This document shows, in pieces, positions 4,882 through 62,245 of a stretch of DNA of 64,000 nt; position 1 is the first letter of the stretch; every line of letters begins with the position of its first letter. The position numbers were made by a program, and so were the translations under genes. Source of the stretch: Halobacteriales archaeon QS_4_69_225. Lineage in GTDB: Archaea > Halobacteriota > Halobacteria > Halobacteriales > Haloarculaceae. The stretch lies in contig PXRL01000003.1 in assembly GCA_003020965.1 (NCBI GenBank), positions 1 to 64,000 on the forward strand, given 5' to 3'. The notes under the pieces were generated by a model. The model did not search any database. It was not told the origin of the DNA and worked only from the letters and a program-made list of their open reading frames with translations.

Positions 4882-7143
4882 ATGTCCCGTCGAGAGGGAA
4901 ATCTCGGGGGAAGCGACGAGACGGAACGCGGAGGCGTGGACGTCAACTTGGCGGACCCGGTCCGGGCGCTGGTCGTCGACGACGACCCCGAGACGGCGGA
5001 GGTGGTCGGCAAGCACCTCCGGCAGGGGCTCGCGGTCGACGTCACGGTCGTCGCCGAGGAGACGGGACGGGCGGGGTTGGCCCGGCTCGAGGCCGACCGG
5101 TTCGACGCCGTGGTCGCGGACTACAGGATGTCCGGGATCGACGGGCTCGAGCTGCTGGACCGCGTCCGCGAGCTGCGCCCGCGGCTGCCGTTCGTCCTCT
5201 TCACCGGCCGGGGAGACGAGGACCTCGCGAGCCGTGCGATCTCGGCCGGTGTCACCGACTACGTGCCGAAGACCCCCGGCACCGAGGCGTACGAACTGCT
5301 GGCCCGGCGGCTGGCGTCGGCGGTCGCCAGACGGCGGGCCGAGCACGAGATCTCGGATCTGAACAGCATCAACCGGACGATACGGAAGACGACACAGCGC
5401 GCGGTCGAAGCCGACGGCCGCTCCGGAATCGAGCGGGCCGTCTGCCGGTCGCTCGCGGGCTCCGACCGGTATCTATTCGCCTGGCTCGGCCGGATCGACG
5501 GCGACCGCGTGGTCCCGGCCGCACGGGCCGGCGCCGAGGCCGGCTACCTCGACGACATCACCGTCAGGACCGACGGGAGTCCGGCCGGCTGCGGACCCGC
5601 GGGTCGTGCCGCCCGGACCGGCGAGCCGCAGGCGACCAAGGACATCCGCGAGGACCCCGACTTCGAGCCCTGGCGCACGGCGGCCGTCGAGCGGGGGTAC
5701 GCCTCGGCGGCGTCCGTCCCGCTGGAGTTCGACGACACCCGGTACGGACTTCTGAACGTCTACGCGGAGCAGGCCGACGCCTTCGACGACCGGGAGCTCG
5801 ACGTGCTCGAGGAGCTCGGAACCACGGTCGCCCACGCGATACACCGGGCGACGCTGACCGACCGTCTCGAGGACCAGTACGAGACGCTGTTCGAGGAGTC
5901 GCCCGTCATGGCCACTACCACCAGCGACGAGAACGGCGAGCCAGTCGTCGACAGCTGCAACCGGCTGTTCCTCGAGCGCCTCGGTTACGACCGCGGCGAG
6001 GTAGTCGGACGGCCGCTCGCCGACTTCTACACCGCCGACTCGGTCGTCAAACTGCTGGAGCAGGCCGGATACGACCGGGCCCGCTCCGGGGAGTTCGTGG
6101 AGGAGCGACGGACGCTGGTCGCCGACGACGACGAGCGCGTCGAGACGCTACTCCGGGCCGTCCCCCGGGTGGACGAGACCGGCGACGTCGTCGGAACCCT
6201 CGCCCTCTACGTCGACATCTCCGAGCGCGAGCGCCTCCAGCAGGAAAACGAGCGGCTCGACGAGTTCACCGGCGTCGTCAGCCACGACCTGCGGAACCCG
6301 CTGACCGTCATCAAGGGTCGGGCGGAGCTCGCCAGCGAGGCGCACGACAACGACGAGGACATCGACGCCATCGTCGAGGCCGCCGGACGGATGCAGGAGC
6401 TGGTGGACGACCTGCTCGACCTGGCCCGACACGGCGGGTCGGTCGAAACGACCGAGCCCGTCGAGCTGTCGTCGCTGGCGGCTGACTGCTGGGGGCTGGT
6501 CGACACCGACGCCGCGACGCTCGACCCGCGAGCCGACCTCGTCGTCGCGGCCGACGAACCCCGGCTCCGGCAGCTCTTCGAGAATCTCTTTCGGAACGCT
6601 GTCGAGCACGGCTCGACAAGCCCTCCTTCGCACGCTCAGGAGGACGCCGTGGAACACGGTTCCACGAGCCTTCCCTCGCAAGCTCGGGAAGACACCGTCG
6701 AGCACGGCTCGACGAGCCCTCCTTCGCACGCTCAGGAGGACACCGGAGGCGAGAACGCCTCCGAGCCCTCGGTCGCTGACGCTCCCGAGGACGCCGTCGA
6801 GCACGGCTCGACGAGCCCTCCCTCGCAGGCTCGGGAGGACACCGGGAGCGAAAACGCTTCCGAGTCCCCGATCGGCGGGTCGTCCGACGGGCTGACCGTC
6901 ACCGTCGGCGGCCTGGACGACGCCGAGGGCTTCTACGTCGAGGACGACGGCACCGGCGTTCCACCGTCGGCCCGCGGCGACGTCTTCGAGCCCGGCCACT
7001 CGACCGACCGCGACAACACCGGGTTCGGGCTCTCAATCGTCGAGGGGGTCGCCGAGTCACACGGCTGGACGGTCGAACTCACCGAGGGGACGGAGGGTGG
7101 CGCCCGATTCGAGTTCCGCGGTGTCGACGCGGAGCCGCTGTAG
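4882..7143 (+). CDS. Hybrid sensor histidine kinase (receiver-GAF-PAS-HisKA-HATPase)
   Basis: A 753-residue cytoplasmic sensor kinase. The receiver domain (residues about 25-140) has the acidic pocket VVDDDP and phospho-acceptor Asp80 in VVADYRMSG. A GAF domain occupies about 170-330 and a PAS domain about 335-455. The HisKA phospho-acceptor is His468 in VVSHDLRNPL. The ATPase N-box Asn572 lies in ENLFRNAVEHG and the G-boxes in DDGTGVPPS and GFGLSIVEGV. Directly after the N-box, about 95 residues of repeat (574-669) split the ATPase domain. ATG 4882 is chosen because it opens just before the receiver domain and follows an AT-rich box at about 4847-4858; the frame is open far upstream but that part is not coding-like. 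Confidence 0.9.
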   Translation: MSRREGNLGGSDETERGGVDVNLADPVRALVVDDDPETAEVVGKHLRQGLAVDVTVVAEETGRAGLARLEADRFDAVVADYRMSGIDGLELLDRVRELRPRLPFVLFTGRGDEDLASRAISAGVTDYVPKTPGTEAYELLARRLASAVARRRAEHEISDLNSINRTIRKTTQRAVEADGRSGIERAVCRSLAGSDRYLFAWLGRIDGDRVVPAARAGAEAGYLDDITVRTDGSPAGCGPAGRAARTGEPQATKDIREDPDFEPWRTAAVERGYASAASVPLEFDDTRYGLLNVYAEQADAFDDRELDVLEELGTTVAHAIHRATLTDRLEDQYETLFEESPVMATTTSDENGEPVVDSCNRLFLERLGYDRGEVVGRPLADFYTADSVVKLLEQAGYDRARSGEFVEERRTLVADDDERVETLLRAVPRVDETGDVVGTLALYVDISERERLQQENERLDEFTGVVSHDLRNPLTVIKGRAELASEAHDNDEDIDAIVEAAGRMQELVDDLLDLARHGGSVETTEPVELSSLAADCWGLVDTDAATLDPRADLVVAADEPRLRQLFENLFRNAVEHGSTSPPSHAQEDAVEHGSTSLPSQAREDTVEHGSTSPPSHAQEDTGGENASEPSVADAPEDAVEHGSTSPPSQAREDTGSENASESPIGGSSDGLTVTVGGLDDAEGFYVEDDGTGVPPSARGDVFEPGHSTDRDNTGFGLSIVEGVAESHGWTVELTEGTEGGARFEFRGVDAEPL
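6601..6888 (+). repeat. 48-bp tandem repeat units and hairpins inside the kinase ATPase domain
   Basis: Units of 48 bp (16 codons) begin at 6601, 6649 and 6697, and a fourth full unit is at 6796. Between the third and fourth is a 51-bp variant at 6745, and a partial variant follows at 6844. Each main unit encodes V-E-H-G-S-T-S and then P/L-P-S-H/Q-A-Q/R-E-D, and each contains a hairpin with 7-bp arms and a 3-nt loop (GTCGAGC-ACG-GCTCGAC or GTGGAAC-ACG-GTTCCAC). The arms differ between units but pairing is kept. The first four codons copy the N-box VEHG, so the array may have grown from the N-box itself. Confidence 0.9.
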
Positions 7144-7150
7144 CCGGACG

Positions 7151-8944
7151 CTACAGCACCGTGCCGTGTTTCTTCGAGGGCCGGTCCTTCTCGACGTCCT
7201 CGTAGAAGTCGAAGCGGGCGGCGAGCTGCTCCCGCAGCGACGACGGCGGAATCACCTCGTCGATGACCACCTCGCTCGCCATCCGTCGGACGTCGATGTC
7301 CTCGCGGTACTCCTCGCGGAGCCGTCGTTCCGTCTCCGCGCGCTCCTCGGGGTCGTCGATCTCGGCGAGCTTCCGGGCGTAGACGGCGTTGATGGCCGCC
7401 TCGGGGCCCATGATGCCGATCTCGCCGGAGGGCAGCGCGACCGTCGACTCGGGGTCGTAGGCCGGCCCCGACATGGCGTAGATGCCCGCGCCGTAGGCCT
7501 TCCGGACGATGACGCACTGCTTGGGCACGGTCGCCTCGCTGGTGGCGTAGATCATCTTCTTGCCCTGCTCGAGGATGCCGTCCTTCTCGACCTGGGAGCC
7601 GGCCATGAACCCCGGCGTGTCGCAGAGGTACAAAAGCGGGACGTTGTAGGCGTCGCACGTCCAGGCGAACCCCGCGGCCTTCTCGGCGGCGTCGGGGAAG
7701 ATGGCGCCGGCCCGCTGGGCGGGCTGGTTGGCGATGACGCCGACCGACCGGCCGTCGAGGTGGGCGAACCCGGTGAGGATTTCGGGGCCGTAGTCCGGCT
7801 GGAGCTCGAAAAACGAACCCCGGTCGACGACCCGCTCGATGACGTCCCGCATGTCGTAGCTCTTGTTCGGCTCCTGCGGGACGACGGAGTCGATGCCGTT
7901 GGGCTCGTACTTCGGCGGCGTCGGCGTCGCCTTGGGCGGCCGCTCGTCGCTGTTGTCCGGCAGATACCCGACGAGCTCGGCGACCAGCTGCCGGGCGTGC
8001 TGTTCGTCGCGGGCGACGAGGTCGGCGCTGCCGGACTCGCCGGCGTGGACGGCCGGCCCGCCGAGTTCCTGCAGGGAGATGTCCTCGCCGGTCACCATCT
8101 CGACCATCCGCGGGGAGGCGATGGCCATCGACGACATCCCCTCGACCATCACGGTGAAGTCCGCGAAGACGGGCGTGTAGGCGGCGCCGGCGATGCACGG
8201 CCCGTACAGCACGCAGATCTGTGGCACCCGCCCCGACAGCCGCGAGTGATTGTAGTAGTACTTGCCGATGCCCTCGCGGTTGGCGAAAAAGCCCGTCTGC
8301 TGGTCGATACGGCCGCCCGAGGAGTCCATCAGGTACAGCACCGGTTTGCCCGTCTTGAGGGCGCGCTGCTGCATCCGGAGGAACTTCTCGACGCCCTTCG
8401 CCGCCATCGATCCGCGCTTGACGGTGTAGTCGTTGGCCATGAAGTGGACGTCGCGGCCCTCGAACTCCGCGGCGCCGGTCAGCAGGCCGTCGGCCGGCAG
8501 CTGGTCGTCGGCGTCGAACTCCGCGAACGTGCCGTCCTCGAAGGCCAGGCCGTCGTCGCCGTCGCCGGGCTGCGCCCGGCTGCCCGAGGAGCGTTGCTCC
8601 TCGCTGTCGCCGGATTCCGTCCGGCTGCCTGCCGAGCTCCGCTCGGGATCGAACCACAGCTCCAGGCGGTCCCGGACGAACAGCTTGCCCGCCTCCGGGA
8701 GCTGTTCCTTGTACTTCTCGGGGCCGCCGGCCTTGATCGCCTCGATCTGCTCGAGCAGTTCCCTCTCGCGGTCGGTCGGGCCCAGGTCGTCCTCGACCGG
8801 CGAGCGGTCGGCCTCGCCGGTCGCCGCCGGCTCGTCGGCGTCGCCGACGTAGACCGACACGGCCGTCTCGGCGTGCGTCGCCATCGCCCGGGCGATGGCC
8901 TCCGCCTCCTCGACGCTCGCGTCGCCGCCGATGCGAATCTTCAT
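7151..8944 (-). CDS. Acyl-CoA (propionyl/acetyl-CoA) carboxylase carboxyltransferase subunit
   Basis: A 597-residue biotin-dependent carboxyltransferase of the AccD/PccB type, transferring CO2 from biotin to an acyl-CoA such as propionyl-CoA. The first ~35 residues (MKIRIGGDASVEEAEAIARA onward) look like the small epsilon/PccX-type domain fused to the front, which is inference. The N-terminal crotonase-like half holds MDSSGGRIDQQ and GPCIAGAAYTP. The C-terminal half holds QPAQRAGAIFPDAAEKAAGF and CDTPGFMAGSQVEKDGI, both family signatures. Residues ~98-128 are a hairpin-coded Ser/Gly/Glu insert between the two. No biotin carboxylase gene is adjacent. The stop lies 8 nt past the convergent kinase stop. 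Confidence 0.88.
   Translation of the reverse strand: MKIRIGGDASVEEAEAIARAMATHAETAVSVYVGDADEPAATGEADRSPVEDDLGPTDRERELLEQIEAIKAGGPEKYKEQLPEAGKLFVRDRLELWFDPERSSAGSRTESGDSEEQRSSGSRAQPGDGDDGLAFEDGTFAEFDADDQLPADGLLTGAAEFEGRDVHFMANDYTVKRGSMAAKGVEKFLRMQQRALKTGKPVLYLMDSSGGRIDQQTGFFANREGIGKYYYNHSRLSGRVPQICVLYGPCIAGAAYTPVFADFTVMVEGMSSMAIASPRMVEMVTGEDISLQELGGPAVHAGESGSADLVARDEQHARQLVAELVGYLPDNSDERPPKATPTPPKYEPNGIDSVVPQEPNKSYDMRDVIERVVDRGSFFELQPDYGPEILTGFAHLDGRSVGVIANQPAQRAGAIFPDAAEKAAGFAWTCDAYNVPLLYLCDTPGFMAGSQVEKDGILEQGKKMIYATSEATVPKQCVIVRKAYGAGIYAMSGPAYDPESTVALPSGEIGIMGPEAAINAVYARKLAEIDDPEERAETERRLREEYREDIDVRRMASEVVIDEVIPPSSLREQLAARFDFYEDVEKDRPSKKHGTVL
8564..8652 (-). repeat. In-frame hairpin array inside the carboxyltransferase gene
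   Basis: Four consecutive short inverted repeats: GCCGGGC-TGC-GCCCGGC (8564-8580), GAGGAGC-GTT-GCTCCTC (8586-8602), GCCGGA-TTCCG-TCCGGC (8609-8625) and CGAGC-TCC-GCTCG near 8634-8646. On the coding strand they specify a low-complexity linker rich in Ser, Gly and Glu (SSAGSRTESGDSEEQ and more). Close relatives would be expected to lack these residues, but that was not checked. Confidence 0.8.
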
Positions 8945-10787: not shown

Positions 10788-11165
10788 GCGGTGTTCAGAT
10801 AAGCACGGCGAGCCAGTCCGTTTCTGCCGGGGAACCAACCGAATCCTGGCGGACTGAAAGGGCGAGGCGCTCTCGGCGAACCCGGACGACGCAAGCCGCG
10901 AGGGACCGAAGGTCCCTCGGCCCGCTCGCGCGGCGCTGCCGCGCGAGGACACCACAGGGAGCAACGCGACCGAGGAGCGTGGTTCGAAAGACGCGACGCG
11001 TCTTTCGTCATTGCGGGAAATCGAAGATTTCCCGCTTGCAGTCAGAACGCCGTGCGTTCTGACGACATCACGAGAGAGCTCCGCTCTCTCGAACGACAGC
11101 GAGTCCCGGGAGCCGAGAGTGCCGAGGGCTTTCTCGACTCCGGAATCCTCATCTGAACACTATCT
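10788..11165. mobile_element. MITE-like modular hairpin element, copy 1
   Basis: Noncoding element filling most of the 478-base gap between the aldolase and hydroxyacyl-CoA dehydrogenase starts. Both ends read GTGTTCAGAT inward (10791-10800, and in reverse 11151-11160). The flanks carry an 8-bp direct repeat CGGAACCG at 10780-10787 and 11166-11173, read here as a target duplication. Inside are back-to-back hairpins, for example GAGGGACC-GAA-GGTCCCTC at 10900-10918, plus the motif TGGCGGACTGAAAGGGCGAG near 10848. Read in reverse it matches the element at 38165-38484 almost base for base outside the hairpin arms. No transposase is encoded. Confidence 0.85.
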
Positions 11166-20975: not shown

Positions 20976-21047
20976 GGGCTCGTAGATCAGCGGTAGATCA
21001 TCCCCCTGGCACGGGGAAGGCCCCGGGTTCAAATCCCGGCGAGTCCA
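20976..21047 (+). tRNA. tRNA-Ala (anticodon GGC)
   Basis: A 72-nt cloverleaf: acceptor GGGCTCG pairs with CGAGTCC, the anticodon arm TCCCC/GGGGA encloses loop CTGGCAC with GGC at 21008-21010, and the T-arm is CCGGG-TTCAAAT-CCCGG. The third acceptor pair is G-U, the main alanine identity element. CCA is not encoded. The 3' end is copied several times downstream, as expected of a favoured integration site. Confidence 0.96.
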
Positions 21048-21127
21048 CTGAGTTTTTCCCGACGCAATACGGCGAGCGGCGCGGAGCGGCAGCGACGCGC
21101 CGCGAGCAACTCGCGTCGGGAAACGAG

Positions 21128-21220
21128 GTCGTCGACGCCCGGATTTGAACCCCTGGAAGACGCAGCGCCGAACGAAGTGAGGCGACCGTCTTCCTCCGGG
21201 TTCAAATCCCGGCGAGTCCA
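21128..21220 (+). repeat. 93-bp repeat A1 carrying the tRNA-Ala 3' end
   Basis: This segment is identical over 93 bp to 21345-21437. Its end copies the T-arm and acceptor end of tRNA-Ala (last 20 nt identical to 21028-21047). It also contains the T-arm in reverse (GGATTTGAACCC at 21141-21152). Together with GGAAGACG (21155-21162) against CGTCTTCC (21187-21194), it folds into one long stem capped by a small hairpin loop. Confidence 0.9.
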
Positions 21221-21344
21221 CTTCCTTCGCTCGCTACGCTCGCTCAGTCGTGGACTCGCCGACCCTCGCGAACGCTTCGCGTTCGCTCAGTCCCGGCGAG
21301 TCCATGATTCTGCGCCGCGAGCAATCCCGCGAGCGGCGCAGATA

Positions 21345-21437
21345 GTCGTCGACGCCCGGATTTGAACCCCTGGAAGACGCAGCGCCGAACGAAGTGAGGC
21401 GACCGTCTTCCTCCGGGTTCAAATCCCGGCGAGTCCA
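21345..21437 (+). repeat. 93-bp repeat A2 carrying the tRNA-Ala 3' end
   Basis: Exact second copy of 21128-21220, 217 bp downstream. The absence of any mismatch over 93 bp suggests recent duplication or gene conversion. Confidence 0.9.
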
Positions 21438-21664
21438 TTTCTGAACGCAGTGAAGAAATGGACGAGCCGACCGTTCCGCGAGCGGAGCGAGCGGAACCTC
21501 GGGAGACGAGCGACGCGAGTCTCCCGGTGTTCGCGAACGCCTTCGGCGTTCGCTCAGTCCCGAGAGACGCCTCGGCGTCTCTCAACCTTCGCGCCGTCTC
21601 CGACGGCGCTCAGTCCCGGCGAGTCCATCGGAGCGACCGAGTTTTACGAGGGAGCGAGAATGGT

Positions 21665-21760
21665 CGAGCCCGGATTTGAGCCCCTGGAAGTCACAGCCCG
21701 GGAGCGCAGCGAACGTAGTGAGCGAGCACCCCGGAATGTTTTCCTCCGGGTTCAAATCCC
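21665..21760 (+). repeat. Diverged third copy of the tRNA-3'-end hairpin repeat
   Basis: Same architecture as the two 93-bp copies: reverse T-arm CCCGGATTTGAGCCCCTGGA at the left, forward TCCGGGTTCAAATCCCG at the right. The central hairpin is changed, and the acceptor end is replaced by a GAGAGACGCC-TC-GGCGTCTCTC hairpin. Confidence 0.75.
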
Positions 21761-38154: not shown

Positions 38155-38164
38155 CCGTCCCGCA
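38155..38164. repeat. Left 10-bp flanking repeat of MITE-like copy 2
   Basis: CCGTCCCGCA occurs here and again at 38485-38494, just outside the two ends of the element, as expected of a target-site duplication. Confidence 0.6.
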
Positions 38165-38484
38165 GGTAGTGTTCAGATGCGAATTGAAGAATCCGGAAAG
38201 CCCTCGACACTCTCGGCTCCCGGGACTCGCTGTCGTTCGAGAGAGCGAAGCTCTCTCGTGATGACGAAAGACGCGTCGCGTCTTTCGAACCACGCTCCTC
38301 GGTCGCGCTGCTCCCTGTGGTGTCCTCGCGCGGCGCTGCCGCGCGAGCGGGCCGAGGGAGCCGACGGCTCCCTCGCGGCTTACGTCGTCCGGGTTCGCCG
38401 AGAGTGCCTCGCCCTTTCAGTCCGCCAGGAGTCAGTTGACCGGCCGGCAGAAACTGGCTCGTCGGCCAGTGTTTATCTGAACTG
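38165..38484. mobile_element. MITE-like modular hairpin element, copy 2
   Basis: This fills the 385-base gap between the ligase start and the O-methyltransferase stop. Left end GTGTTCAGAT (38169-38178); right end the reverse, ATCTGAAC (38475-38482). Outside lie perfect 10-bp direct repeats CCGTCCCGCA (38155-38164 and 38485-38494). The body matches copy 1 (10788-11165, reversed) in its linkers (GAAAGCCCTCG, ACTCGCTGTCGTTCGAGAG, TCGAACCACGCTCCTCGGTC, CGCCCTTTCAGTCCGCCAGG). Hairpins differ but still pair: GAGGGAGCC-GAC-GGCTCCCTC (38354-38374) replaces GAGGGACC-TTC-GGTCCCTC (reading copy 1 in reverse). It lacks two hairpins present in copy 1. No protein is encoded. Confidence 0.88.
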
Positions 38485-38500
38485 CCGTCCCGCACATGCG

Positions 38501-39537: not shown

Positions 39538-40386
39538 ATGAGCGATAACCCAGACCCGAACGAGCCGAACACCTCGACCGACGAGGAGTTCGACTTCGAA
39601 GAGGAATCGTCCAGCCAGGGGGTTCGAGACGAACAGGAGCGCCGCCTCGAGGAGATGGAACAACGGCTCGAGCGGAAGGAATCGGAGCTCGACGAGCGAG
39701 AACAGCGGCTCGAGCGGGAGGCGTCCGAACTCAACGAGCGGGAGGACGACCTGCTCGAGCGCCGCGAGGAGGTCGTCGGGCTCCGCGAGGAGGTCGAGTC
39801 GCTGGAAAGCGACATCGAGGACCGCAAACAGCGGCTCGACGAGCGGGAGGTGTCCATCGACGAACAGGAACGGGAGCTCGAAGAGCGGAGCGCCGAGCTG
39901 GCCCGAAAGGAGCAGACCCTCCAGAACTACGTCGACGACCAGCTGGCGGGTCTCGAAGACGAGCTGGCCGAGACCGTCCGGACGGCCGTCGACTCGTCGA
40001 TGCAGAACGTCGAAGGCGGCGACGTCGACGAGGAGAGGCTCACCCGAACCGTCCGGAGGGCCGTCGACTCGTCGATGCAGAACGTCGAGGGCGGCGGCGT
40101 CGACGATGAGACGCTCAGCCGGACCGTCCGCGAGAGCGTCGACTCCGCGATCGACGGCCGCGACCTCGGGGCGAACGGCAGCGCCTTCGGCGCCGTCCTC
40201 GGGTCGCTGCTGGCGTTCCTCGGCATCCTGCTCGTCGCCGGCGGCGTTTCCAACGCCCTGCTCACCTTCCTCGGCGAGGGCGGACTCACCATCCTCTCCG
40301 CCGACTCGACGAACTACATCGCCTCGTCGGGGCTCGTCATCATCGGCTTCGCCGCCAACCTCGCCGCCGCGGCCGGCCGAGTGTAA
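39538..40386 (+). CDS. Long coiled-coil protein with C-terminal membrane anchor
   Basis: A 282-residue protein of unknown function. Residues ~30-135 form a continuous coiled coil built of Glu/Arg/Leu heptads (EEMEQRLERKESELDERE and similar). Residues ~147-200 contain two 25-residue repeats, then a degenerate third (TAVDSSMQNVEGG, RAVDSSMQNVEGG, ESVDSAIDG). The C-terminus has two hydrophobic helices (AVLGSLLAFLGILLVAGGVS and YIASSGLVIIGFAANLAAAA). The coil is predicted to face the cytoplasm. A TATA-like AAGTACTTAACA precedes it. Resembles no known family; a role as membrane-attached scaffold is speculative. Confidence 0.72.
   Translation: MSDNPDPNEPNTSTDEEFDFEEESSSQGVRDEQERRLEEMEQRLERKESELDEREQRLEREASELNEREDDLLERREEVVGLREEVESLESDIEDRKQRLDEREVSIDEQERELEERSAELARKEQTLQNYVDDQLAGLEDELAETVRTAVDSSMQNVEGGDVDEERLTRTVRRAVDSSMQNVEGGGVDDETLSRTVRESVDSAIDGRDLGANGSAFGAVLGSLLAFLGILLVAGGVSNALLTFLGEGGLTILSADSTNYIASSGLVIIGFAANLAAAAGRV
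39976..40125 (+). repeat. Two tandem 75-bp repeats in the coiled-coil gene
   Basis: Units 39976-40050 and 40051-40125 each encode 25 residues and share GTCGACTCGTCGATGCAGAA and the following VEGG codons; a diverged third unit follows. Repeats of whole codons keep the frame. Confidence 0.85.
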
Positions 40387-52607: not shown

Positions 52608-53110
52608 GCGATAGTGTTCGGCGAGGACGAAGTGGCGCCGTTCGGCGGTGATGGCGGTGTTTCCGAACGCCCCCTCCCGCCCGCGGGCCGTGGCTCACGA
52701 ATCGGCCACTCGCGGCTCCCCTGCGGTCGCCGGCAGAGCTTCGCTCTGCCGAGCCCTCGCTCGCTTCACTCACGAGGACGCCGTGGAGCATAGCTCCACG
52801 AGCCCTCCTTCGCAGGCTCAGCGGCTCGACCGAGGCTCCCCTCCGGTCGGCCTCGCAGGTCGCGTCTCGTTACTGCTCGCTGTCTCCGGAAATCAAAGAG
52901 TTTCGGGAGTGAGCGGATCGGAGATCCGCGATCTACGGAAGAGCTTCACTCTTCCGGTATGACGAAAGACGGCTCCGCGAGCCGTCTTTCAAACCACGCT
53001 CCCGTGTCGTCGCCCACGTCGCTCCTCCCGCTCGCTCCTCCCGCTCGGCCTCGCCCCGCGAGCGGTCGGCCCCGTTCGAGGTCCCGCCCGACGCCGGCCG
53101 ACCGGCCGGC
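52608..53110. repeat. Hairpin-array repeat region, related to the MITE-like elements
   Basis: Occupies most of the 711-base gap between the DICT gene start and the broken sensor. It opens near ATAGTGTTCGGCGAGG, similar to the ends of the MITE-like copies (ATAGTGTTCAGATGAGG), but no clean opposite end was found. Inside: CGGCAGAGC-TTC-GCTCTGCCG (52731-52751), GTGGAGC-ATA-GCTCCAC (near 52783-52799), GCGGATC-GGA-GATCCGC (near 52913-52929), and GACGAAAGAC...GTCTTTCAAACCACGCTCC around 52961-53000, the same linker as in copy 2. At 52774-52821 it matches the 48-bp histidine-kinase repeat. No gene seen. Confidence 0.78.
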
Positions 53111-53267
53111 TCTCGCGTAGCGAAACACGGCCCTCCACGGCTCGTCGCCCGACGGCCGCCGTTAGTTAAGCCTCGGCCACGTGGTCGCCGGGGCCACGCG
53201 ACCGCTGGCCGATCATACCCCGTAGACGTGTGCGTATCGGACTCGGCGTTCGACCTGATCGAATCAG

Positions 53268-60181: not shown

Positions 60182-62245
60182 TCAAGCGCGCTTTCCGATG
60201 GCCTCCCGCAGCAGCTCCGAGACGACCTCGCCGTCGGCCTTCCCGCGCAACTCGCCCATGCACTCGCCCATCAGCCCCGAGAAGGCGCCCATCCCCTCGC
60301 GTTCGACCTGGTCGGCGTTGCGCTCGACGACGCCCTCGACGACCTCGCGGACGGCCTCGCGGTCGGCGCCGCCGACGCCGGCGGCCTCCATCGCCGCCTC
60401 GGCGTCCAGCGAGGGGTCGTCGGCCAGCGCCGACAGCACCGGCCCGATCCCTTCGTTGGGCAGCTCGCCGTCGGCGACGAGCTCCAGAACCGACAGCAGG
60501 TGGTCGTCGGCCAGTCGCCCGACGGGGACGTCGTCCCGGCGGAGCTCGGTCAGCGTCCCTTCGAGGGTGTCGGCGGCGGTCGTCGGGTCGACGCCCCGCG
60601 CGACGGCGGCCTCGAAGGTCGGCATGTGCTCGCCGTAGGCGACCTGTTCGGCCAGCCTGGCGTCGAGGCCGTGTTCGGCCCGGTATCGGTCGATCTTCTC
60701 GGTCAGGAGCTCCGGCGGCTCGATCGCCGAGGGGTCCGGCTCCACGGGCGGAACGTCCGTCTCGGGGTACATCCGGGCGGCGCCGGGCAGCGGCCGCAGG
60801 TACCGCGAGGTGCCGTCCTCGTCGGCGCCGCGGGTCTCCTCGGGGACGCCCGCGATTGCGGTCTCGGCACGGTCGGCGACGGCGTCGATCGCGCGCTCGG
60901 CGACGTCGGCGTCGGCGGCCACCAGCGCGACGGCGTCTCCTGCTTGCGGCTCATCGCCGTCTTCTCGCGGGCCGCGGGACGGCTCTGCCGTCCCGTTCGA
61001 GGCGGTTTCACCGCCTCGCTGCCCGCTCGAACGGTCCGCGGAGTGGTTCGAAGATGACCGCTGGCTATCTTCGTCATCACGAGAGACGGCGTCGCCGTCT
61101 CTCGAACGACTTTGCTCCGCGCTACTCGCACCGTTCGAGGCGCTCTGCGCCTCGCGCGCGTCGACAGCCTCGCGCAGGGCCGACACCTCGGTCTCGGTGA
61201 CGCCGTAGGCCGGCAGCTCGTCGGTGTGGAAGATTCCGCCGGCGCCCTGGCGCGTGGCGTGGTCCGACAGCTCCGTGCCGAGGCGGCGGTCGGGCTGTAT
61301 CTCCCGGCCGACGAGGCCGTCGAAGCCCGCCAGACGGACGGCCGCGACCGACTCGGCGCCCGATATGACGCCGCTGTCGGTGTCGGCGAAGACCTCGGTG
61401 ACGTCGACCGGGTCGCCGACGGCGGCGTTCCGGGCCCGCAGCTCCTCGGCTATCTCCAGAAGTTCGACCTGACGCCGCACCTCGTTTTCGACGATGTCGT
61501 CGATGTCGTCGAGGCTCTGGACGCCCTTCAGCTCGACGCGGGCGCCGGCCTCGATGGAGACGTTGACGTCCTGGCGGATGGTACCGAGCCCGCGCTTCAC
61601 CCGGCCGGTCGACCGCAGCAGCATGCCGATGCGCTCGGCGGCCTGCTTGGCCTGTGCGGGCGTCCGGATGTCGGGCTCCGTTCCGATCTCGACCAGCGGC
61701 ACCCCGAGGCGGTCGAGGCCGTAGGTGACGCCGTCCGCCCGGTCGTCGATCCGGGCGGCGGATTCTTCCTCCAGCAGGAGGTCGGCGATACCGACGGGGC
61801 CGGCGTCGGTCTCGATCTCGCCGTCGGTCGCCAGGAGCGCCGACCGCTGGAAGCCGGAGGTGTTGGAGCCGTCGACGACGATCTTCCGCATCACCTGTGC
61901 TTGGTCGACGATCGTGCAGTCCAGCAGGGCGGCGATCTCCAGGGCAACTTCGAGGGCCCCCCCGTCGAGGCGGTGGGGCGGCTCGTCGTCCTCCTCGACG
62001 AGGCAGGTGGAATCGAAGGCGAGGTACTCGAACTCGCGGTCGACGCGGGACTCCTCGAGGGCGGCCTCGTCGAGCTCGCCGAGTTCGGACTTCGTCGGGT
62101 GGAGATACCGGGTGAACGACCGGACGGAATCGGCGGGGTCGCGGCGCTCCGTCGGGCAGTTACAGAACAGCTTCGTCGCCGTGTCGAGCTGCTGGTGGAT
62201 CTCCAGCCCGGCGACGAGTCCCAGTTCCTCGTAGTCGTAGCTCAT
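60182..62245 (-). CDS. gatE: Glutamyl-tRNA(Gln) amidotransferase subunit E
   Basis: A 687-residue archaeal GatE, which with GatD converts Glu-tRNA(Gln) to Gln-tRNA(Gln). The N-terminus GLVAGLEIHQQLDTATKLFC, PHRLDGGALEVALEIAALLD, and VDGSNTSGFQRSALLATDGE are core motifs, as are GLGTIRQDVNVSIEAGARVE and the C-terminal helical tRNA-binding YqeY/GatB-like tail (KVSADGEVVSELL-like). Length exceeds the usual ~620 residues because of a ~70-residue hairpin-coded insert at residues ~361-432, a Ser/Glu/Asp-rich stretch. GatD is not in this window. Confidence 0.9.
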   Translation of the reverse strand: MSYDYEELGLVAGLEIHQQLDTATKLFCNCPTERRDPADSVRSFTRYLHPTKSELGELDEAALEESRVDREFEYLAFDSTCLVEEDDEPPHRLDGGALEVALEIAALLDCTIVDQAQVMRKIVVDGSNTSGFQRSALLATDGEIETDAGPVGIADLLLEEESAARIDDRADGVTYGLDRLGVPLVEIGTEPDIRTPAQAKQAAERIGMLLRSTGRVKRGLGTIRQDVNVSIEAGARVELKGVQSLDDIDDIVENEVRRQVELLEIAEELRARNAAVGDPVDVTEVFADTDSGVISGAESVAAVRLAGFDGLVGREIQPDRRLGTELSDHATRQGAGGIFHTDELPAYGVTETEVSALREAVDAREAQSASNGASSAEQSRSRDGDAVSRDDEDSQRSSSNHSADRSSGQRGGETASNGTAEPSRGPREDGDEPQAGDAVALVAADADVAERAIDAVADRAETAIAGVPEETRGADEDGTSRYLRPLPGAARMYPETDVPPVEPDPSAIEPPELLTEKIDRYRAEHGLDARLAEQVAYGEHMPTFEAAVARGVDPTTAADTLEGTLTELRRDDVPVGRLADDHLLSVLELVADGELPNEGIGPVLSALADDPSLDAEAAMEAAGVGGADREAVREVVEGVVERNADQVEREGMGAFSGLMGECMGELRGKADGEVVSELLREAIGKRA
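60960..61160 (-). repeat. In-frame hairpin array inside gatE
   Basis: On the plus strand in order: GGGACGGC-TCT-GCCGTCCC, GAGGCGGT-TTC-ACCGCCTC, an imperfect GAAGAT...ATCTTC hairpin, GAGAGACGGC-GTC-GCCGTCTCTC (61081-61103) and GAGGCGC-TCT-GCGCCTC. The linkers GTGGTTCGAA (near 61043), TTCGTCATCACGAGAG and TCTCTCGAACGA are the same as in the MITE-like element at 10979-11095. All hairpins keep the reading frame open. Confidence 0.9.

Follow-up and report, generated by a model that had tools for sequence, protein, structure and literature searches.

Double-hairpin modules with constant linkers and variable paired arms in haloarchaeal IS6-type MITEs and coding genes: probable mobile units

How can two copies of one repeat share their linkers while the hairpin arms between these linkers differ and still pair perfectly? 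This question is raised by a stretch of 64,000 nucleotides from Halobacteriales archaeon QS_4_69_225 (contig PXRL01000003.1), which is referred to as the window. Positions 10788-11165 (minus strand) and 38165-38486 (plus strand) align in the same order through all four linkers that had been named in a first-pass annotation. As described there, the arms are different and perfectly paired, GAGGGACC-TTC-GGTCCCTC in one copy versus GAGGGAGCC-GAC-GGCTCCCTC in the other; they differ in the loop and by a base pair that is inserted in one of them. Copy 1 contains two further hairpins, GTCAGAACGC.. and GCGGGAAATC.., and the ends of the copies read GTGTTCAGAT. The analysis yielded a concrete and testable answer, namely that the linkers would belong to small mobile hairpin modules.

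Orthologous presence and absence of modules in one MITE family

The likeness of the two copies is not due to chance. The draft genome of the host (G000, 2.95 Mb) contains about 40 related places (best E 5.6e-197), and a structural scan found 13 double hairpins in the window, compared to 0-1 in order-2 Markov controls. The annotation had proposed a non-autonomous element, and this was borne out: both copies belong to an IS6-type MITE with 8-bp duplications and the ends GGTAGTGTTCAGATAAG..CTTATCTGAACACCGCC. In 16 of 22 two-ended copies, at least six of the eight flanking bases match (shuffled mean 1.0, maximum 5). Minimal copies comprise about 200-220 bp and have no transposase of their own; the oriented copies in G000 span the range from these forms of about 200 bp to about 690 bp. 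No insertion sequence with the MITE ends and no DDE_Tnp_1 (PF01609) transposase was found in G000. Because this genome contains only broken IS6-type relatives of about 36% identity, the autonomous partner was sought in related genomes. There, in L386, L387 and L392, GTAGTGTTCAGATAAG ends bound elements of about 696 bp with ORFs of 211-212 amino acids, and one 211-aa protein was assigned to the IS6 family transposases (NCBIfam NF033587, above cut-off) with a DDE_Tnp_IS240 domain (Pfam). These dimensions correspond to the archaeal ISH14 group (696-698 bp, 211-aa transposase, 8-bp duplication; PMC6807381). Given the IS6-type ends in relatives and the 8-bp duplications, the host element is therefore classified as an IS6-type MITE, the core of which is palindromic. 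Folded as DNA, this core, or minimal element, has a z-score of -5.4.

The features of the window that bear on the MITE are the following.

10788..11165, minus: MITE copy 1 with IS6-type ends GATAGTGTTCAGATGAG..CTTATCTGAACACCGCC, which match the elements of about 696 bp in relatives; 8-bp duplication GGTTCCGA/GGTTCCGG
10896..10949, minus: module U3 of copy 1, TC-[CTCGCGCGGC..]-CGGGC-[CGAGGGACC TTC..]-CGG; double hairpin in the scan; absent from the G013 ortholog
10980..11096, minus: module U1 of copy 1, TCGTTCGAGAGAGC..CGAACCA, carrying the nested U1'; boundaries as in copy 2; absent from the G013 ortholog
11009..11065, minus: nested module U1', the two extra hairpins of copy 1; presence varies among copies
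38165..38486, plus: MITE copy 2; 8-bp duplication GTCCCGCA at 38157-38164 and 38487-38494
38233..38292, plus: module U1 of copy 2 with a length of exactly 60 bp, flanked by CTCGCTG and CGCTCC; these 60 bp are cleanly missing from the minimal MITE at the G013 locus
38323..38378, plus: module U3 of copy 2 with a length of 56 bp, placed with an uncertainty of one G; these 56 bp are likewise cleanly missing at the G013 locus
52700..53120, plus: larger degenerate conglomerate from the structural scan with a U1-like part at about 52880-53000; absent at the G013 locus

Direct repeats of 8 and 10 bp had been reported at the flanks. Repeats are indeed present at both copies. That of copy 1 reads CGGTTCCG and corresponds to a 7/8 match in the frame of the family. 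The 10 bp of copy 2, CCGTCCCGCA, have to be read as the 8-bp duplication plus two chance bases, which were added because the right end of this copy is 2 nt short.

The minimal MITE copies of G000 lack the hairpins that had been compared between copies 1 and 2. The extra hairpins of the longer copies occupy fixed slots in the form of double-hairpin units (U1, U1', U2, U3, U4 and U5; modules were counted in sampled stretches of the genome). In each module of about 45-68 bp, short fixed linkers join and flank two hairpins, which are perfectly paired and have loops of 3 nt. The DNA of the sister species G013 is about 95% identical to that of G000. At the copy-1 locus, it contains the same MITE without U1, U1' and U3, and at the copy-2 locus the two genomes differ by exactly the 60 bp of U1 and the 56 bp of U3. 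Note that indels inside ordinary coding sequence were ignored in this comparison, as they may be assembly gaps of the draft G013. The differences probably reflect module gain in G000 and not precise loss in G013, a direction that is only partly polarised by outgroups.

Since both the minimal copies and the sister loci lack the modules, the arms of copies 1 and 2 most likely differ through the separate arrival of module variants. The annotation had assumed that hairpins are exchanged or converted as units. They do behave as units and stay paired; in-place swapping of arms, however, is not the main event, given the minimal copies and the G013 loci without these hairpins. Conversion among the MITE copies may also have contributed, above all at copy 1. 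Here, the whole apical segment including the apical hairpin of the core differs from G013, so that one conversion tract could bring several modules. The checks proposed along with the annotation gave the following results: a linker search of genomes found many further copies with the same linkers, the arms are not decaying through uncompensated mutation, related genomes have empty sites instead of the same sequence without duplication, and the transposase search led to the IS6-type elements that share the MITE ends.

Several observations concern the surroundings of these elements. The 3' motif of the core is present in many Halobacteria, in several of the cases inspected without a visible IS6-type end nearby. 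In Halosimplex and a related MAG (L080, L084, L105), the 5' part of the core (GAAAGCCCTCG..) forms tandem arrays with units of about 60-70 bp that end in one full core copy. The core had no match in phages and was matched only partially in plasmids (nine haloarchaeal records); as a part of the TnpB right end it was rejected, because its motif had no match at sampled TnpB 3' ends. Within the window, positions 20976-21760 contain a tRNA gene followed by repeated copies of the tRNA 3' end and hairpins with other linkers (TCAGTCCC, AACCTTC); in this region G000 is longer than G013 by hundreds of bases. At about 40000-40150, a coiled-coil-like gene contains a coding tandem repeat of 75 bp (ACGTCGA.GGCGGCG..), at which the alignment of both genomes breaks. 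Further hairpin inserts lie in the region 6600-6900 and measure 48-51 bp in G000 and 87 bp in G013.

U1, a module with many arms and mostly perfect pairing, widespread in Halobacteria

The best-defined module is U1 with the layout TCGTT-hp1-TGATGA-hp2-AACCA and a length of 54-68 bp. A pattern that contains linkers only, CGTGATGACG N10-26 CGAACCAC, was found in 204 of 292 Halobacteria genomes and 66 of 77 genera, whereas the reversed pattern was absent from the same 292 genomes. In other classes of the phylum, represented by 164 genomes, no match occurred. The 38 matches in viral contigs served as a chance control; the free part was paired in only one of them, and they thus provide no evidence for viral carriage of U1.

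Among 83 unique instances in Halobacteria, the free part hp2 forms a perfect hairpin in 77, and 29 arm sequences are represented. Hairpin hp1, which lies outside the search pattern, is perfect in 72 of 77 instances, and the 5' linker TCGT[TAC] is present in 72/77. The base preceding U1 is a G in 74/77; the C that follows is part of the search pattern and is also usual when not required. With shuffled 3' arms, perfect pairing fell from 41 to 13 of 51. Within a module, the arms of hp1 were never identical to those of hp2 (0/51 versus 5.7 expected). Triloops of the type GNA/TNC were found in 82 of 125 hairpins (66%), compared to 68 of 377 single hairpins of the same genome (18%; p=2e-22). C-GNA-G triloops give rise to unusually stable DNA minihairpins, and this DNA-type signature suggests that the substrate is single-stranded DNA. 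Both orientations of a loop are found (TTC/GAA, TCC/GGA), and U1 folded as DNA has a z-score of -3.9. Further double-hairpin families with the linkers CGCACA and GGCA, whose arms vary with perfect pairing, were seen in L221, L234 and L236.

Insertion at loop edges and in coding genes

U1 inserts between G and C without target duplication. A stem of at least 6 bp surrounds the insertion point at 13 of 64 distinct sites, a frequency well above the 3.6% obtained for random G^C positions (p=5e-7), and among the stem-bearing sites the insertion is usually located exactly at the loop edge. Several sites, distributed over several genomes, are IS605/IS1341-like end hairpins (GGGG^CTTGACCCC), again without duplication. 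The point of insertion thus coincides with a clear short hairpin in only a fifth of the U1 sites; most of the others lie in the MITE/PATE-like core. Another double hairpin was found inside the terminal hairpin of a TnpB 3' end.

Besides the MITE and the IS605/IS1341-like end hairpins, modules appear to have entered even essential protein genes; they were found in gatE, in gltB and in a carboxylase gene. The inserts located in the window are listed below.

60944..61150, minus: in-frame palindromic insert of about 70 codons in gatE (ORF 60182-62245, GatE match); missing from 18 congeners and shorter in G013
61044..61109, minus: 66-bp U1 in gatE at the loop edge of CGCGGAG(CAAAG)CTCCGCG, where G013 has the bare hairpin; a few bases differ from the gltB copies
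60974..61018, minus: 45-bp double hairpin in gatE at the tip of GCGGGC(AGA)GCCCGC, where G013 has the bare hairpin
8561..8647, minus: in-frame palindromic insert of about 87 bp in an acyl-CoA carboxylase gene (ORF 7151-8944, Carboxyl_trans domain); residues 100-128 are missing in the orthologs of congeners

The gatE genes can be arranged in a series that leads from the 18 congeners without insert via the outer hairpins of G013 to G000, where two modules have been added in the hairpin tips, in frame. An in-frame 66-bp U1 is also present in gltB of G000 and G013. Only a few of its 66 bp differ from the U1 of gatE, and this near-identity suggests a spread from gene to gene. In the open-access literature, no report was found that describes modules of this kind within coding genes of haloarchaea. 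The inserts in gatE, gltB and the carboxylase gene extend to archaea the in-frame insertion of palindromes, which is best known from Rickettsia.

Proposed mechanism, alternatives and known systems

We consider it probable that these double hairpins are independently mobile modules, which insert into folded single-stranded DNA and have been collected by IS6-type MITEs. They would mostly enter elements that already fold into hairpins; nesting would arise because the insertion is often exactly at the stem-loop edge. Linkers would be common to the copies because they are the fixed parts of the module, arms would differ because different variants were inserted, and the variants would stay paired because recognition depends on the folded form. 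The moving form is presumably folded single-stranded DNA from the lagging strand or a replication gap; a nuclease or transposase that recognises structure and acts in trans may cut and join it at the linkers. Pairing of the arms would be kept by selection for mobility and may be helped by template-switch correction, as template switching perfects inverted repeats (PMC6649704, discussion). A far-reaching version of this proposal, which we regard as rather doubtful, would postulate a class-wide set of protein-free DNA elements of about 60 bp that are conserved only in linkers and double-hairpin shape, move in folded single-stranded form into stem-loop edges (self-nesting and loop-targeted) independently of Y1 proteins, and spread in frame from gene to gene.

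A natural candidate for the enzyme is a Y1 transposase. The modules might then be minimal IS200/IS605-type (Y1/HUH) elements, a haloarchaeal counterpart of REPINs or PATEs that is moved by TnpA or a RAYT-like protein; IS200/IS605-derived elements would carry subterminal hairpins that TnpA recognises, with fixed cleavage sites and guides. The two hairpins, the lack of a duplication and the insertion into IS605-type palindromes are in agreement with this alternative, which is conceivable but less likely. Moreover, Y1_Tnp is more common in U1-bearing genomes (156/204) than in other Halobacteria genomes (45/88; Fisher p=3e-5), an association that is, however, confounded by phylogeny and the general load of mobile elements. 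Furthermore, no Y1_Tnp was detected in 48 U1-bearing genomes. These include G000, which contains recent insertions and approximately 12 strict matches to U1; in this genome, which is 89% complete, no Y1 transposase was detected. It contains 26 TnpB-like genes over the Pfam cut-off. That the modules do not transpose at all, and that homologous recombination in the form of ectopic gene conversion carries the segments containing them from one dispersed MITE copy to another, is conceivable but on balance unlikely. The MITE copies are about 85-90% alike, and the deviating apical segment of copy 1 could represent a conversion tract. Haloarchaea are polyploid and readily undergo gene conversion. This explanation is opposed by the sharp boundaries of 60, 56, 66 and 45 bp and by identical module ends in unrelated hosts that lack flanking homology, namely gatE, gltB and the IS605/IS1341-like ends, in many genera.

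It is improbable that the hairpins are a mere product of mutation, with template switching during replication at quasi-palindromes growing, perfecting and inverting the tips. Such a process would be in line with the fact that variation is greatest in tips and loops and that loops occur in both orientations, and it is known to perfect inverted repeats. Nevertheless, the recurrence of 16 identical linker bases (TCGTT..TGATGA..AACCA) at numerous sites in 66 genera cannot be produced in this way, and neither can a nearly identical 66-bp unit in two genes, although template switching may still keep the arms paired. The strong folding of the minimal element and of U1, calculated for DNA, would be in favour of structured regulatory RNA elements or terminators that are under selection and spread by recombination. 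This reading is nevertheless highly improbable: the loops are of the GNA/TNC type, the position relative to genes is not conserved, and the modules are found within coding genes and nested in other repeats. A search of Rfam gave no match; a sub-threshold hit of CRISPR-DR20 in a palindrome was taken as chance.

The archaeal IS6-type elements and MITEs of the ISH14 group and MITEHarch3 (PMC6807381) share GG ends and 8-bp duplications with the host MITE; they account for the host element only and not for the modules. The Rickettsia palindromic elements, of about 150 bp, lose the identity of their arms over time (PMC10969869, PMC6649704). They resemble the modules in being palindromic repeats that are inserted in frame in unrelated metabolic genes, as is the case for gatE, the carboxylase gene and gltB. 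In contrast, the modules are smaller, their arms stay paired, they can insert at a hairpin tip, and their host is an archaeon. Fungal mitochondrial double-hairpin elements and the repetitive hairpin-forming elements of sponges likewise consist of two tandem hairpins, are mobile and occur also within genes. They are, however, organellar and unrelated in sequence, and in sponges the stems are conserved and the loops vary (PMC2800124), whereas on the archaeal chromosome the linkers are conserved and the stems vary with pairing. The fungal elements are accordingly a structural analogy only. REP/REPIN sequences with their RAYT proteins (PMC3733652, PMC3116915) form doublets of short hairpins whose stems vary with complementary changes. 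U1 differs from them in that it has no GTAG/CGTC tag at the foot of the hairpin and in that its two hairpins are never the same. As to mobilisation by a RAYT (Y1) protein, none was detected in G000 (89% complete), and some Y1_Tnp is present in 156 of 204 U1-bearing genomes. The Rickettsia, fungal/sponge and REPIN systems are therefore functional parallels and not families to which the modules belong.

In behaviour, the nearest relative is SMR-A of Haloquadratum walsbyi (HqIRS42/43/55), which is set beside the modules here by its description. These elements of about 110 bp are more than 95% identical within a type, and their mobilisation has been called enigmatic (PMC3119063). Like the modules, they are short, have inverted ends and many copies, cause no target duplication and reside in near-terminal palindromes of IS605-type transposons and PATEs; U1 matches them in the lack of a duplication and in its insertion into such palindromes. 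The modules differ by their length of about 45-68 bp, the two hairpins, the fixed linkers and the freely varying paired arms (for U1, 54-68 bp and 29 hp2 arms), and they are also found in MITEs and in frame in genes, with U1 spanning the class. For the question of how small mobile repeats are mobilised, the two sister species offer a system with exact empty and filled sites and a search pattern that consists of linkers only.
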